Assembly: GCF_002210105.1 (NCBI RefSeq)
Contig: NZ_AQQU01000008.1
Span: forward strand, 1 to 64,000
Direction: 5' to 3'
DNA length: 64,000 bases
From: Oceanicola sp. 22II-s10i
GTDB lineage: Bacteria; Pseudomonadota; Alphaproteobacteria; Rhodobacterales; Rhodobacteraceae
Shown: one piece after another, positions 14,066-18,493 of the stretch
Layout of the letters: every line of letters starts with the position of its first letter
Position numbering within the stretch: position 1 is the first letter of the stretch
Program-made: the position numbers and the translations under genes
Notes under the pieces: generated by a model
Told to the model about the DNA's origin: nothing
What the model saw: the letters and a program-made list of their open reading frames with translations, nothing else
Database searches by the model: none

Positions 14066-14209
14066 GCATCAACACGCTGACGGGGTGGTCGTGCCCTCCG
14101 TTCCATGGATGGCGGCCCGGTGCATACGACAGCAGAGCGCGCGATCGCTTGAAGCTATCGCGTTTCCTGCGGAACCTCGGTGACATTGTTTCTCGGTGAG
14201 GAGGTTTGC

Positions 14210-14232
14210 CACTTTCCGTTCCACGGAAAGTG
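14210..14232. repeat. Hairpin beside the left attachment repeat
   Basis: CACTTTCCG (14210-14218), loop TTCCA, CGGAAAGTG (14224-14232): perfect 9-bp stem ending two bases before the att core. It could be a terminator for the luxI-like gene or part of the recombination site. Confidence 0.5.
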
Positions 14233-14234
14233 CA

Positions 14235-14248
14235 TGGTGCCCCCAGAG
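14235..14248 (+). repeat. Left attachment-site repeat of the integrated element
   Basis: TGGTGCCCCCAGAG, identical to 18418-18431, which is the 3' end of tRNA-Thr. The flanking bases differ, so the shared core is exactly 14 bp. Confidence 0.85.
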
Positions 14249-14392
14249 GGCGTCCAAGCCCTATATCTTGATGCCCCGTCCTGCTCTGAGTTGACGCGAT
14301 AGCCATAAAAACATGGCCCAATCGTGTTCCGCGCTATTCCATCACGGCCCATCATACCCCATATCTTGAGGGGGATTGAAAAGGGGATGAAA

Positions 14393-15592
14393 ATGACCCG
14401 CGCCTTGAACCGTCTCAGCGCCGCAGCGCTCAAGTCCGCGCCGGTCGGCAAACATGCCGATGGCGGCGGCCTCTGGCTCGTCAAGCGACCGGATGGCGGT
14501 GCGCAATGGGTTCTGCGCGTCACGCCCCACGGCAGGCGGCGCGAAATGGGGCTGGGTTCCTTCCCTGACGTTTCGCTCAAAGCTGCGCGGGAGAGTGCTG
14601 AGAAGTGCAGGGCAATGGTCCGCAGCGGTCTGGACCCGATCAAGGAGCGGGAACGGGAACGCCGGGAGGCCGCTCGGAATATCCATATGCTTGCCGATAT
14701 CGCGCTGGACGCCTTCGAAAGCCGCAAGGCCGAATTGAAGGGCGACGGGAAGGCAGGGCGCTGGTTCTCTCCGCTGGAACTGCATGTGCTGCCCAAGCTG
14801 GGAAAGGTGCCGGTGGCGGATATCGACCAGAAGGATATCCGCGACACTCTCGCCCCCATCTGGCACACCAAGGCGGACACCGCTCGGAAAGCGATGAACC
14901 GGTTGGGCATCGTCATGCGCTACGCGGCGGCGTTGGGGCTGGAAGTGGATCTGCAGGCCACCGACAAGGCAAAGGCGCTTCTGGGCAAGCAGCGGCACAC
15001 CGTCACCAATGTGCCAGCTATGAACTGGCGTGACGTGCCCGCGTTTTATCAGTCGCTCGGCGGATCGGTCACGGAACTGGCGTTGCGGTTGCTCATCCTT
15101 ACTGCGGTCCGGTCCTACCCCCTGCGGTTCCTGCATGTGGACCAGATCGAGGGGGACGTTTGGGTGATACCCGCAGCGGCCATGAAAGGTCGACTGGGGA
15201 CGACAAGTGACTTTCGGGTGCCCTTGTCCGCTGAGGCGCAACGCGTTGTGTCAGAGGCCCGGAAATTCGCGCGCGATGGGTATCTTTTCCCCGGCCTGCG
15301 GCGGGGTGTGATTTCCGACATGACGATGACGGCTTTCATGGACCGGCGCGGTTTGGTCGAGCGGCCCCACGGGTTTCGGTCGTCGTTCCGCGACTGGACG
15401 GCGGAAGCAACGAACACGCCGCGCGAAGTGGCGGAAACCTGTCTTGGGCATGTCAGCGGGGGCGCGGTCGAACGGGCATATCGACGGACGGATTTTCTAG
15501 AGCAGAGGCGGGCGGTGATGGAGCGCTGGGCGCTGGTAATTACCAATAGGGTTGATATTGCAATACTGAACCGGGGGGGCGATGCCGCTTAG
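14393..15592 (+). CDS. int: Tyrosine-type site-specific integrase (P4 family)
   Basis: 399 residues. The N-terminal DUF4102-like arm-binding domain (LSAAALKSAPVGKHADGGGLWL) and central SAM-like domain lead to a catalytic domain. Visible catalytic signs: an Arg in ILTAVRS, then HGFRSSFRDW, LGH in CLGHVSG and Y in AYRRTD. I chose ATG 14393 because GGGG lies six bases upstream; ATG 14387 is close by. It probably recombines the tRNA-Thr 3' end, given the flanking repeats. The next gene overlaps its stop by 11 bases. Confidence 0.92.
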   Translation: MTRALNRLSAAALKSAPVGKHADGGGLWLVKRPDGGAQWVLRVTPHGRRREMGLGSFPDVSLKAARESAEKCRAMVRSGLDPIKERERERREAARNIHMLADIALDAFESRKAELKGDGKAGRWFSPLELHVLPKLGKVPVADIDQKDIRDTLAPIWHTKADTARKAMNRLGIVMRYAAALGLEVDLQATDKAKALLGKQRHTVTNVPAMNWRDVPAFYQSLGGSVTELALRLLILTAVRSYPLRFLHVDQIEGDVWVIPAAAMKGRLGTTSDFRVPLSAEAQRVVSEARKFARDGYLFPGLRRGVISDMTMTAFMDRRGLVERPHGFRSSFRDWTAEATNTPREVAETCLGHVSGGAVERAYRRTDFLEQRRAVMERWALVITNRVDIAILNRGGDAA

Positions 15593-16289
15593 TCCTCCGC
15601 TTGGTGGATGGGGCTGTCCAGATTGGAAGGACCCATCCGCATACGACAACAACCAGAACTGGTCCGATGAAAGGTGGCGCTGGGAATTTCTAAGGCGCAG
15701 TCACTCTGTTCGAGGGACTTACCATATGCAGGCATGCAAGGAATGGAGACGCAGTTGTCCCGGCATGCCAATTCCCAAGGATATTTTTTGGCACGAGCGC
15801 TATTCGGATATGACTATCGGCATTCCCCCGAGTATCGCCGCTTCAATAGGATACCCGTCGCTTCCCAACCCAGTTTATGCCGACAGCTTTCTATTGTTGG
15901 AGCAATGGTCGGATCACGACCATAGGTATCTGCAGGCGCGACGCATCTATCCGCTTGATTTTGCGAAGGAGCATAAACTTAAGTTCGGGGGCAGTGAAAT
16001 TATGTCACCCACTCAGATCGGCATCGTTTTCGATCCAAACCAACCGATAGAGCCTCAGGTGCGCAACTTAGAGAGTTTCCTGCTTTCGCTTCGACATCAT
16101 TCCATCAAGACACGAAAAAAGCTCCATAAATCAAAGATGTCGAAGTATCTAAGGATTCTAGATGCGAGGGAGCAGGGTGCCAGCTGGGCCGATTGCGCGG
16201 GCTCCATTTTGTCGTTCGATACGGTGGCAACTCCACAGACTGCAGCGGACACGTTCAAGCAAGCTAGAGCGTTCCAAGCCTCGTTGTGA
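15582..16289 (+). CDS. DUF6499/transcriptional-regulator-like protein of the island
   Basis: 235 residues. The N-terminal PDWKDPSAY ... RWRWEFLRRS resembles the short domain seen in regulators of alphaproteobacterial conjugative and integrative elements. The middle and C-terminus are unrecognised, with a basic segment (TRKKLHKSKMSKYLRILDAREQG) that may be a DNA-binding helix-turn-helix. It overlaps the integrase stop by 11 bases, so it is probably coupled. Clearly lower GC and different codon use from the chromosome, a sign of transfer. Confidence 0.65.
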   Translation: MPLSPPLGGWGCPDWKDPSAYDNNQNWSDERWRWEFLRRSHSVRGTYHMQACKEWRRSCPGMPIPKDIFWHERYSDMTIGIPPSIAASIGYPSLPNPVYADSFLLLEQWSDHDHRYLQARRIYPLDFAKEHKLKFGGSEIMSPTQIGIVFDPNQPIEPQVRNLESFLLSLRHHSIKTRKKLHKSKMSKYLRILDAREQGASWADCAGSILSFDTVATPQTAADTFKQARAFQASL

Positions 16290-16369
16290 TTTTAGGCCCC
16301 CCTTCTTTTCCCAATCTTCAAAATCAATCTTCTGTTCCACGGTGCGCCATACCAAACTGTGGAGACGAA

Positions 16370-16540
16370 ATGACCTACCTCACCTTCAACGACCTCAGGT
16401 CCAAACTCGGCAACCGGGGACGGACCACGATTTACCGAGACGTCGAACTGGGCCGTCTGCCCAAACCCATCAAGATCGGTTCCCGCCTCTACTGGGCGGA
16501 ATCTGAAATCGACGCGGCTCTGGCCGCAGCGGCAGAATAA
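16370..16540 (+). CDS. AlpA-like MerR-type helix-turn-helix protein (putative excisionase/regulator)
   Basis: 56 residues: LTFNDLRSKLGNRGRTTIYRDVELGRLPKPIKIG, then a wing SRLYWAESEIDAAL. This matches AlpA/excisionase-like proteins, which in P4-type elements activate integrase or promote excision. A GGAG site lies five bases before ATG 16370. Small, complete and well positioned for element control. Confidence 0.8.
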   Translation: MTYLTFNDLRSKLGNRGRTTIYRDVELGRLPKPIKIGSRLYWAESEIDAALAAAAE

Positions 16541-16648
16541 GACCCGCCCCACCCAAGCAATGCGCTTGGGCGATGGGGACGGGAATGTTCTCTGGAAAAA
16601 ACGCCCAAACCCTACGCCCAGCGCCTTCCGAAATCAAGGAGGCCTGAT

Positions 16649-16957
16649 ATGGCTCACTCAACTGACTGGGGCGCGAAGCCCTTTACCTTCATCCAGCCTG
16701 ACGAGACCCGGCTTTCGGTCATTGTGAAAGGCCGTGACCGCTGGGCGCTGGAATGTCTCATCGCCGCAGGCAAACGCGGCTGCACGCCCATCGACACCCC
16801 CGGACCCCGTTGGAGCGGATACGTCTGGAAGTTGCGGGAGATGGGGATCCAGATCGAGACCGTCACGGAGCCGCACAGCGGGCCGTTTTCCGGCACTCAC
16901 GCCCGCTATGTCCTGCACAGCCAGCCGGTGGCGCAAGACGGCGGGGTTCCGGCATGA
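16649..16957 (+). CDS. Small winged-helix-like protein of the island
   Basis: 102 residues. The core FIVKGRDRWALECLIAAG-type stretch (actual residues 26-43) followed by GPRWSGYVWKLREMGIQIET looks like a winged helix with a recognition helix, as in small hypothetical regulators of Rhodobacterales islands. AGGAGG lies just before ATG 16649. Its stop overlaps the next start (ATGA), opening a tightly coupled three-gene set. Confidence 0.65.
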   Translation: MAHSTDWGAKPFTFIQPDETRLSVIVKGRDRWALECLIAAGKRGCTPIDTPGPRWSGYVWKLREMGIQIETVTEPHSGPFSGTHARYVLHSQPVAQDGGVPA

Positions 16958-17079
16958 ACCGCGCCCCCAACACCCCGTCATCGCGCGATGCTTGGGAAGC
17001 GCGTCTTTTTTACCGGCATAGCCTGCCGCGCTGGTTCGCCCGGACACACGCTGACCTTCGCAACGGGCGGCCCGACTGA
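16954..17079 (+). CDS. 41-residue hypothetical protein of the island
   Basis: MNRAPNTPSSRDAW... to NGRPD, 41 residues, basic and rich in Trp, Arg and His. No known family. Support is positional: it starts in the stop of the previous gene (ATGA) and its own stop overlaps the next start (TGATG), an arrangement hard to get by chance. Confidence 0.55.
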   Translation: MNRAPNTPSSRDAWEARLFYRHSLPRWFARTHADLRNGRPD

Positions 17080-17540
17080 TGGCGAAACCCTACAAGCATC
17101 ACAAAAGGGGGGCTGGGCGTCACGTCCAGCTTCCTGAATGGCTGCAGGCCAGCGAGGCATGGGCGACCATGAAGCCCGGCCCAAGGGCGCTCTACATCGA
17201 ACTGAAACGGCGGTTCAACGGCACGAACAACGGGCAGATCATCCTTAGTCACCGGGACGCGGCTCAGGCCCTTGCCGTGCATCGCAATACGGTCGGCCCG
17301 TGGTTCGATGAACTGCAGCAACGGGGGTTCATCCGCATGACGCAGGCCCCTCACCTCGGTCCCGCCGGTATCGGCAAGGCGTCTATCTGGGCGCTGGAGG
17401 AACTGCCGACGCAAGCCGGTCATCTGCCATCCAAGGCGTTCATGTCTTGGCGGGTGAATAAAAAGCCCCGCACAAAAACTGGGACGTCCCGTCACAAACA
17501 CTGTGACGCATCGGCGGGTATTGCGGCGAAACTGGCGTGA
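17079..17540 (+). CDS. Helix-turn-helix protein of the island, possible replication or control protein
   Basis: 153 residues. Basic start (KPYKHHKRGAGRH), then a winged-helix segment LSHRDAAQALAVHRNTVGPWFDELQQRGFI typical of proteins that read DNA in phage and plasmid modules. The C-terminus is basic and probably disordered (KKPRTKTGTSRHKHC). No catalytic motif. Third gene of the coupled set beginning at 16649; 168 non-coding bases follow before the zinc-ribbon gene. Confidence 0.65.
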   Translation: MAKPYKHHKRGAGRHVQLPEWLQASEAWATMKPGPRALYIELKRRFNGTNNGQIILSHRDAAQALAVHRNTVGPWFDELQQRGFIRMTQAPHLGPAGIGKASIWALEELPTQAGHLPSKAFMSWRVNKKPRTKTGTSRHKHCDASAGIAAKLA

Positions 17541-17708
17541 ACCGTCCGGAAAACTGTGACGTGCGGTGTATGACTTTCGATGCCGCGCGGCCCAAGAAAC
17601 CGGACACATATACATCTAGCCAAGGGCAGTGGTTCTTTCCGGGCGAGCGATGCGACTGGTTCGACGGGGCAACTTGCCAGTCGATTTGGATAAAATAGGG
17701 GAAAATAG

Positions 17709-18314
17709 ATGGGCGGATGCGGTAGCGGCACATACCTGCGCTGGGGCGGGCGCATGACGGTCGAAGATATGAAACCCCTGCGGATCGGAGTGCTGGCGAA
17801 AGACGGCTGGCTGCACTCCGGGCGAACTTCGAAATACAGTTGGACGGTGAACGGAGAGCCGGAGGGCGACATACGGGTGACGGCACGCGATGGCCACGTC
17901 AGGCTGAATTATCGGCATCGGAAGGGCGGCGATTGGGAATCGAAAAACTACCGGGTTCGGATCGAATACACGCCTTGCCACTTTGGCGGATCGCGACCTT
18001 GGTTCATCTGCCCAGCGCTAGGATGCGGAAAGCGGACAGGGACACTCTACGGCGGCACGATATTCGCGTGTCGCAGGTGCCACCAGCTTGCATACCCATC
18101 GGAGAACGAGAGCCGTAGGGACCGTGCTATCCGGAAAGCGGACAAGCTGCGAAAGCAGCTAGGCTGGCCTCCTGGCATTTTCGAAGGGGCGGGTTGGGGA
18201 AAACCTCGATACATGCACCGAGCCACATATCAGAAGCTGGCGACTGAATACGAGGCGCTTGAGGCCAAAGCGTTGACCGAAACGATGGCTTGGCTGGCGA
18301 TGTATCGAAATTAG
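17709..18314 (+). CDS. Zinc-ribbon hypothetical protein of the island
   Basis: 201 residues. The N-terminal GGCGSGTYLRWGG is characteristic of a family common in phage and island regions. The zinc-ribbon pair is CPALGCGKRTGTLY followed by FACRRCHQLAYPSE. After that comes a basic helical region (RRDRAIRKADKLRKQLGW) suited to nucleic-acid binding. GGGGAAA precedes the ATG. Function not established. It is the last gene before the right attachment repeat. Confidence 0.7.
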   Translation: MGGCGSGTYLRWGGRMTVEDMKPLRIGVLAKDGWLHSGRTSKYSWTVNGEPEGDIRVTARDGHVRLNYRHRKGGDWESKNYRVRIEYTPCHFGGSRPWFICPALGCGKRTGTLYGGTIFACRRCHQLAYPSENESRRDRAIRKADKLRKQLGWPPGIFEGAGWGKPRYMHRATYQKLATEYEALEAKALTETMAWLAMYRN

Positions 18315-18369
18315 GCCGGAGAGCACTCACCAGCTACAGACGGGGGGATTCGGAGGGGGATAGAAGAAC

Positions 18370-18387
18370 CAGTTAGTCAATTAACTG
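18370..18387. repeat. Inverted repeat near the right end of the element
   Basis: CAGTTA (18370-18375) and TAACTG (18382-18387) in an AT-rich segment just inside the right attachment repeat. Candidate recombination-accessory site or weak terminator. Confidence 0.35.
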
Positions 18388-18417
18388 TATGATTTTCAAA
18401 GTCTTATTGAATTTAAT

Positions 18418-18431
18418 TGGTGCCCCCAGAG
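18418..18431 (+). repeat. Right attachment-site repeat (tRNA-Thr 3' end)
   Basis: TGGTGCCCCCAGAG; encodes the CCA end and acceptor 3' strand of tRNA-Thr and matches 14235-14248 exactly. Confidence 0.85.
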
Positions 18432-18493
18432 AGACTCGAACTCCCGACCCACTGATTACAAATCAGTTGCTCTACCAGCTGAGCTATAGGGGC
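18418..18493 (-). tRNA. tRNA-Thr (TGT)
   Basis: Minus strand. Acceptor GCCCCTA (18493-18487) pairs with TGGGGGC, the anticodon loop TTTGTAA gives TGT (18460-18458), the T arm has GTTCGAG, and CCA is encoded. The 3' end forms the right border of the integrated element and remains functional. Confidence 0.96.

Follow-up and report, generated by a model that had tools for sequence, protein, structure and literature searches.

A compact integrative element at tRNA-Thr in Oceanicola sp. 22II-s10i: a possible minimal phage satellite with a candidate replication module

The described elements closest to the locus reported here are phage satellites, the phage-inducible chromosomal islands (PICIs) and the phage-inducible chromosomal minimalist islands (PICMIs); statements taken from the reports cited here and below refer to excerpts of those reports. 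In PICMI115, int is followed by a gene that overlaps it, by alpA, by a small gene, by prim and by an accessory gene (PMC10803314). PICI origins have iterons immediately 3' of the replication gene (PMC6092414), and the PICI-like element (PLE) of Vibrio cholerae employs an iteron-binding initiator that is not a predicted helicase or primase (PMC7145576). Here a stretch of 64,000 nucleotides from Oceanicola sp. 22II-s10i (contig NZ_AQQU01000008.1, positions 1 to 64,000; hereafter the window) was analyzed, in which a 14-bp direct repeat brackets a 4,183-bp element beside a tRNA-Thr gene. We read it as an intact minimal integrative element, namely a PICI/PICMI-like phage satellite that supplies its initiator and iteron origin itself and has no packaging genes, and assign this reading a probability of roughly 0.55. 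A phage satellite is the best fit among the three options offered by a preliminary description of the locus, the others being a defense module and a decayed island, but it is not proven.

Insertion behind tRNA-Thr and the family of relatives

As had been described, a direct repeat, TGGTGCCCCCAGAG, is located at both ends of the element; its right copy starts at the exact 3' end of tRNA-Thr(TGT) (Table 1). By our own arithmetic, the chance of a 14-mer match between stretches of about 650 and about 130 bp is about 3e-4. The element DNA is single copy in its own genome, and a DNA search of plasmid records gave five partial matches to it. The congener G015 has, directly after the same tRNA, the hairpin that is seen outside the left repeat of the window, and when the flanks of the window were joined, hairpin and tRNA aligned with G015 across the junction; we take the G015 locus to be an empty site, as this alignment supports. 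Weighing against an empty site, the alignment consists of the hairpin and the tRNA only, with the DNA further out on both sides unaligned, and G015 has a second partial core 117 bp to the left. The congener G008 carries at the same tRNA a related element of 4,195 bp whose own 16-bp repeat matches G008's own tRNA variant, and in the congener G011 about 1.2 kb of other DNA separates the flanking gene from the tRNA.

Comparison with the G008 copy gave ratios of nonsynonymous to synonymous divergence (dN/dS) of about 0.07 for int (dN 0.09, dS 1.3), 0.03 for alpA, and 0.26, 0.18 and 0.35 for the genes of the 102-aa, 153-aa and 201-aa proteins, respectively; these ratios are rough because dS lies between 1.2 and 1.9. 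The genes are intact and under selection, with dN far below dS. A decayed island, which the small size and the lack of known cargo would suit, is contradicted by these intact open reading frames (ORFs), by the conserved architecture and repeats, and by the many repeat-bounded relatives, and we give it almost no credence.

Relatives were sought with a profile of four 153-aa homologues in 295 genomes of the family, own genome included, and were present in 41 of them (41 of 294 genera); a profile of 49 sequences found relatives in 16 of 289 genomes of the class. Gene content was mapped at 46 loci, comprising the window, five loci found earlier and 40 fetched ones: the integrase is present at 42, AlpA at 37, the 102-aa protein at 21 and the 201-aa protein, which is broken in L072, at 13. 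The recurring order is integrase, a variable gene often overlapping it, AlpA, a small winged-helix protein, the 153-aa protein and cargo, with L084, where alpA is more than 4 kb distant, as an exception. A gene of at least 90 aa overlaps int by exactly 4 nt at 26 of 76 loci (raw count, duplicates included). At L061, L074, L105 and L106 the 102-aa family is absent and another small protein (about 94-128 aa) lies between alpA and the 153-aa gene. Genome G162 contains four 153-aa homologues at separate places (L056, L058, L063, L084). In Litoreibacter halocynthiae the element is probably multicopy, since two contigs (L109 and L110) both begin within near-identical copies of the 153-aa gene.

At 67 non-viral loci that have an integrase, a repeat of at least 12 bp was sought between the integrase side and a tRNA downstream of the 153-aa gene. 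Such a repeat, 14 to 51 bp long, bounds the element at a tRNA in 37 loci, and the tRNA 3' end points at the element in all 37; the integrase-distal position of the tRNA holds by construction, because only tRNAs downstream of the 153-aa gene were examined. Three of the 37 are same-place duplicates (L119, L123, L131), leaving 34 distinct elements. The repeat-bounded elements measure between 3.8 and 14 kb, with 16 of these 34 distinct elements at 3.8-5.1 kb, and the repeat is exactly 14 bp in 12 of the 34; that of L127 lies 24 bp outside its tRNA. Target tRNAs in the family are those for Thr, Ser, Leu, Arg, Ala, Phe, Met and Lys. The 30 loci without such a repeat comprise 23 without a tRNA in the fetched stretch, one (L073) with a tRNA and no repeat, and six with a tRNA just upstream of the integrase. 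These six (L063, L077, L087, L089, L091, L094) form a second arrangement, in which a 14-bp repeat was found for L077 only. The preliminary description had set repeat-bounded elements in other genomes against the same genes lying without repeats at an ordinary chromosomal place, and with 37 of the 67 loci repeat-bounded the outcome favors a mobile element. From the repeats of exactly 14 bp and the dyads at left ends we infer a core of 7+7 bp, that is, an acceptor-stem arm of about 7 bp and a 7-bp overlap. The 8-mer core of a possible integrase arm-type site lies at most 260 bp from the left end of 11 of 35 elements; none of 35 outside stretches contains it.

The copy on a Tritonibacter mobilis megaplasmid (L023, 8001-12453) ends in a 3' tRNA-Thr fragment, without a full tRNA gene in the stretch, and this fragment is possibly a secondary or carried-over site.

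Taken together, these loci apparently constitute an undescribed family of integrative elements behind tRNA genes, mostly in marine bacteria. Within the open-access literature on phage satellites in roseobacter/rhodobacter, subscription papers being outside this scope, the matches listed include no such element, and a report on Rhodobacteraceae prophages (PMC8224337) makes no mention of a satellite or PICI.

A candidate initiator and phased sites around its gene

Profile matches suggest that the 153-aa winged-helix protein is likely a replication initiator and part of a candidate replication module. Among 42 homologues, 30 matched phrog_186 (DnaD-like helicase loader; best 8.3e-9), 25 matched phrog_270 (replication initiation; best 1.4e-9) and 12, the window copy not among them, matched phrog_345 (O-like). 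Three results pull in the other direction: the window copy itself matches weakly, to two helicase-loader families at 1e-4 and 1e-3; Pfam matches of the 153-aa family are to generic helix-turn-helix (HTH) families; and hhalign comparisons with lambda O alone and with lambda Nu1 alone gave no link. A packaging specificity factor (small terminase), for which the phased sites described below would be cos or pac sites and not an origin, could explain why the 153-aa gene stands directly upstream of the large terminase in L151, L143, L142 and L145, where no separate small terminase was noticed, though no search was aimed at one. Against this, four related contigs (L139, L141, L148, L157) encode a Terminase_4 small subunit in addition to the 153-aa homologue, and the 22 families matched by the 153-aa homologues include no terminase family whereas most homologues match the helicase-loader profile. 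A small terminase is highly improbable.

Five iteron-like sites, with spacings of 22-32-22-44 bp (each +/-1) or about 2-3-2-4 helical turns, surround the stop codon of the 153-aa gene. The unit sequence of the sites varies across elements and the geometry is constant. The spacing was derived from ten loci, some of them duplicates (the window, L019, L020, L135, L136, L077, L067, L132, L075 and L083). When scored against 40 dinucleotide shuffles per locus, z exceeded 9 in 31 of 101 loci (duplicates included); for the window z was 5.7, with 0 of 40 shuffles as high. The spacing was then re-tested without the ten pattern-finding loci, using 150 random spacings as control. The mean score was 92.2 in 20 held-out viral-contig loci, against 54.6 (SD, standard deviation, 2.8) for random spacings, and 58.9 in 62 other held-out loci, which include a few from a strong neighboring clade (L076, L079, L080, L082), against 52.5 (SD 0.8); none of the 150 random spacings reached the real one in either set, whose loci are not independent by descent because they are homologues of the ten. 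Two observations count against a phased origin in the window: the spacing test gave weak or negative results at many loci of its clade, in part because the third site is degenerate, and the plain 10-mer repeat count of the window was reached in 7 of 20 shuffles and is not significant.

An AT-rich box, GGACA-TAT-ACAT, follows the last site in 26 of 81 non-viral loci (L122 and L123 being duplicates), mostly continuing with CTAGCCATAGGCAG. A 22-base box pattern with one mismatch allowed matched 11 places in 9 of 394 genomes, all 11 adjoining a homologue of the 153-aa gene, and the reversed control matched none; the window, with its variant CCAAGGGCAG, does not belong to the 11. One viral contig, L158, was matched by an exact 20-base pattern, beside a 153-aa homologue and upstream of portal and capsid genes.

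The phased sites might instead serve an autoregulated transcription factor as operators, or act in partition, in an element that does not replicate. The 153-aa protein has only a winged-helix domain, with generic Pfam HTH matches and little C-terminal domain, which would suit this view. In contrast, the location of the sites in and behind the gene and their helical phasing resemble lambda and PICI initiator/origin layouts, and there are the profile matches to initiators; operators or a partition site are distinctly unlikely. The preliminary description had recognized no defense, resistance, replication, packaging or transfer gene; its replication part is now doubtful in view of the initiator-like 153-aa protein and the iteron-like sites.

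Phage links, modes of spread and other genes

Phage genes accompany the same protein family elsewhere. Terminase, capsid or portal genes were found in 17 of 21 viral contigs with a 153-aa homologue; these contigs are 4.2-49 kb long, most 6-18 kb, and L149 and L150 look like one element. In L146, PHROGs identified seven genes (adaptor, head closure, HNH, large terminase, capsid, protease and portal), and a scan of ten further ORFs returned portals, connector, HNH and topoisomerase in L151, L144 and L141. Within a Rhodobacteraceae genome, L080 is a 10.2-kb element with terminase and capsid genes, inserted at tRNA-Lys with a 51-bp repeat. The tree of 90 153-aa homologues places the window in a clade of 48 rows, and the neighboring clade, in an open fork with L158, has 31 rows, of which 17, scattered, are capsid-bearing. 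The genome of the window itself has two terminase loci in prophage-like regions, which are candidate helpers only; in a comparison aimed at a shared packaging site, the longest exact match between the element and each region was 16 bp, hardly longer than the 14-15 bp of reversed controls. In the same genome (C34), L174 7046-15833 encodes portal, HNH, connector and terminase proteins in an order resembling L139/L141.

Several points weigh against a phage connection of the window element. Capsid genes are overrepresented in IMG/VR owing to its design, and because L139 encodes a major tail protein, along with a tail-completion protein, some of the capsid-bearing contigs may derive, whole or in part, from tailed phages and not from satellites. 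Capsid genes were not found in the 48 rows of the window's clade, some of whose stretches are short; the 102-aa and 201-aa proteins were not found in the viral contigs with single-sequence patterns; and the element DNA and the 102-aa and 153-aa proteins had no match in phage records. Moreover, the excised circle, the helper and the particle are predictions of the satellite reading.

As a satellite, the element, whose genes seem to serve little beyond its own insertion, excision and copying, would move as follows. The integrase would recombine the 14-bp core with the tRNA-Thr 3' end and leave the tRNA whole, in keeping with the repeats and the putative empty site. By analogy with PICMI and FseA, the FseA/iolg-like 235-aa protein and AlpA may turn the integrase towards excision. 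Replication would next be initiated by the 102/41/153-aa operon: the 153-aa protein would bind the phased sites, which lie within its gene and immediately behind it, beside the AT-rich box, and would recruit the helicase and primase of host or helper. Exit of the circle or concatemer in helper-phage particles is proposed because no packaging or transfer gene was recognized, and is the weakest step.

The initiator-like gene, the iteron-like sites and the absence of a packaging gene would also suit a plasmid-like integrative element. Such an element would excise and replicate unaided and be spread passively through transformation or gene transfer agents, with no dedicated helper phage. One copy of the element is on the Tritonibacter megaplasmid, with its tRNA fragment. 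The 201-aa family occurs on 24 plasmid records (E 1e-10), and on the three plasmids scanned (L096, L098 and L100; 7.3, 4.8 and 48 kb) its homologues lie just downstream of proteins matching REP_ORF2-G2P/YagK, weakly in L096 and L100 and clearly in L098, with L101 similar by look. A tblastn search placed the initiator on just three plasmid records, of 0.36-1.7 Mb, and on no small plasmid, and the neighboring clade is tied to capsid genes; a plasmid-like element is unlikely. An integrative and mobilizable element that excises and is moved by a conjugative helper through a short origin of transfer would account for the resemblance of the integrase/AlpA pair and the FseA-like protein to regulators of conjugative elements. 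The eight element proteins yielded no match to relaxase or conjugation genes, and the capsid-linked relatives and the replication module also argue against conjugative mobilization, which we regard as very unlikely.

For the satellite reading, we tentatively propose a distinct, undescribed phage-parasite replicon of Alphaproteobacteria, with a one-domain winged-helix initiator, a fixed AT-rich box and five sites whose phasing follows 2-3-2-4 helical turns, present both in capsid-encoding elements and in capsid-free elements of about 4 kb. To our knowledge, the latter would be among the smallest phage satellites. If so, roughly every seventh sampled genome (41/295) of an abundant bacterial family harbors small hitch-hikers behind tRNA genes, at a size probably below that usual for island calling. 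The origin geometry would provide a search signature that is independent of cargo and links capsid-free to capsid-encoding elements, and the minimal DNA needed by a satellite would become a directly testable question.

The P4-type integrase, the AlpA-like protein and the tightly coupled set of 102, 41 and 153 residues were recovered as originally described (Table 1). The 53-aa ORF is probably not a gene because, among the ORFs of 46 loci, it matched itself only and because it overlaps the conserved DNA box. Profile comparison of the 102-aa and 153-aa proteins revealed no detectable relationship. The 235-aa protein has Pfam matches to DUF6499 (E 0.043) and DUF2285 (E 0.012) in FseA order, both below the cut-offs, as is a DUF6499 match of its L121 homologue (2.5e-4). 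It contains WEFLRR, close to AWEFLRRN, the motif identifying DUF6499 (PMC10359603). The 201-aa protein is a variable accessory gene product, patchy in distribution (4 of 61 genomes of the order), and its plasmid neighbors hint at a replication-linked role. No phage structural or lytic genes are among the element proteins, and none of the eight matched a DUF3987/DUF5906 primase. With PADLOC at E up to 1, the sole match was a weak mad1, to the AlpA protein; a defense module is unsupported for the window copy, though some larger relatives carry restriction-modification genes, for example a type IIG restriction enzyme (L093; L133 similar by look) and a cytosine methylase (L076). The cargo of an 11.4-kb relative (L071, 6084-10930) includes long ORFs, named by eye, which we take to resemble ImuB/DnaE2.

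Table 1. Features of the element and its borders (window coordinates)
Feature	Position	Strand	Remarks
Hairpin CCACTTTCCG/CGGAAAGTG	14208-14234		Immediately outside left repeat
Left 14-bp attachment (att) repeat TGGTGCCCCCAGAG	14235-14248
Possible integrase arm-type site CCCTATATCTTGA	14259-14271		Near-repeat at 14357-14369; putative function
P4-type tyrosine integrase, 422 aa	14324-15592	+	GTG start; Pfam Arm-DNA-bind_3 9.4e-20, Phage_int_M 1.2e-14
235-aa protein	15582-16289	+	Overlaps int by 11 nt; position of PICMI iolg gene
AlpA-like excisionase/regulator, 56 aa	16370-16540	+	Pfam Phage_AlpA 9.9e-6
HTH_91 winged-helix protein, 102 aa	16649-16957	+	Pfam HTH_91 5.5e-37
41-aa protein	16954-17079	+	Coupled to neighbors by ATGA and TGATG overlaps
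153-aa winged-helix protein	17079-17540	+	Candidate replication initiator
Iteron-like site 1 AAAACTGGGAC	17475-17485	+
Iteron-like site 2 AACACTGTGAC	17497-17507	+
Iteron-like site 3 GAAACTGGCGT	17528-17538	+	Degenerate
53-aa ORF	17537-17698	+	Probably not a gene
Iteron-like site 4 AAAACTGTGAC	17550-17560	+
Iteron-like site 5 AGAAACCGGAC	17595-17605	+
Conserved AT-rich box GGACACATATACATCTAGCCAAGGGCAG	17602-17629	+	After last site
201-aa cysteine-rich cargo protein	17709-18314	+	Zinc-ribbon-like
Right 14-bp att repeat	18418-18431		Within tRNA 3' end
tRNA-Thr(TGT)	18418-18493	-	Intact target

Comparison with known elements

Satellites resembling the capsid-forming PICIs (cfPICIs) are defined by their own capsid, portal and terminase genes. 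Contigs of the neighboring clade often combine int, AlpA, the same initiator family, phased sites and head genes, and L158 also the box, whereas terminase, capsid and portal genes were not found in the window element or its clade. No cfPICI in Alphaproteobacteria was found in the open-access literature. The lambda O/ori region similarly has iterons within the initiator gene (J02459: 39034, 39054, 39078, 39101); their starts are near-regular, 20-24 bp apart, in contrast to the 22-32-22-44 pattern, and hhalign against lambda O alone gave no sequence link. The PLE of Vibrio cholerae likewise has an iteron-binding initiator without a predicted helicase or primase, but this initiator is of the RepA_N type, the integrase is a serine integrase and the element is 18 kb (PMC7145576). 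Charybdis elements, at about 4.6 kb, are also marine and possible satellites; they differ in having archaeal hosts and no hallmark proteins of viruses, transposons or plasmids, whereas the window element has a clear integrase (PMC12324425).

Like a PICI, the window element has an integrase, an AlpA-type regulator and no structural genes, and its sites, here predicted from sequence, correspond to repeats directly 3' of a replication gene; PICIs are usually 12-15 kb, so that its 4,183 bp are about a third of that size, and it has no recognized primase or helicase (PMC6092414). The likeness to the PICMIs of Vibrionaceae extends to the small number of genes, int with an int-overlapping gene (by ATGA in many), alpA, often a small gene, a replication gene and an accessory gene, to the lack of capsid remodeling genes and to marine hosts (PMC10803314). 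PICMIs differ in encoding a DUF3987/DUF5906 primase, in place of which the window has the winged-helix protein and iteron-like sites, in inserting at fis (optional in the first model) and not at tRNA-Thr, in belonging to another bacterial class, and in having a helper phage, which for the window element is a prediction. Because it lacks the primase of a PICMI and the size of a PICI, the element is not filed as a member of either group; by analogy of layout, it may nonetheless work like a PICMI or PICI.

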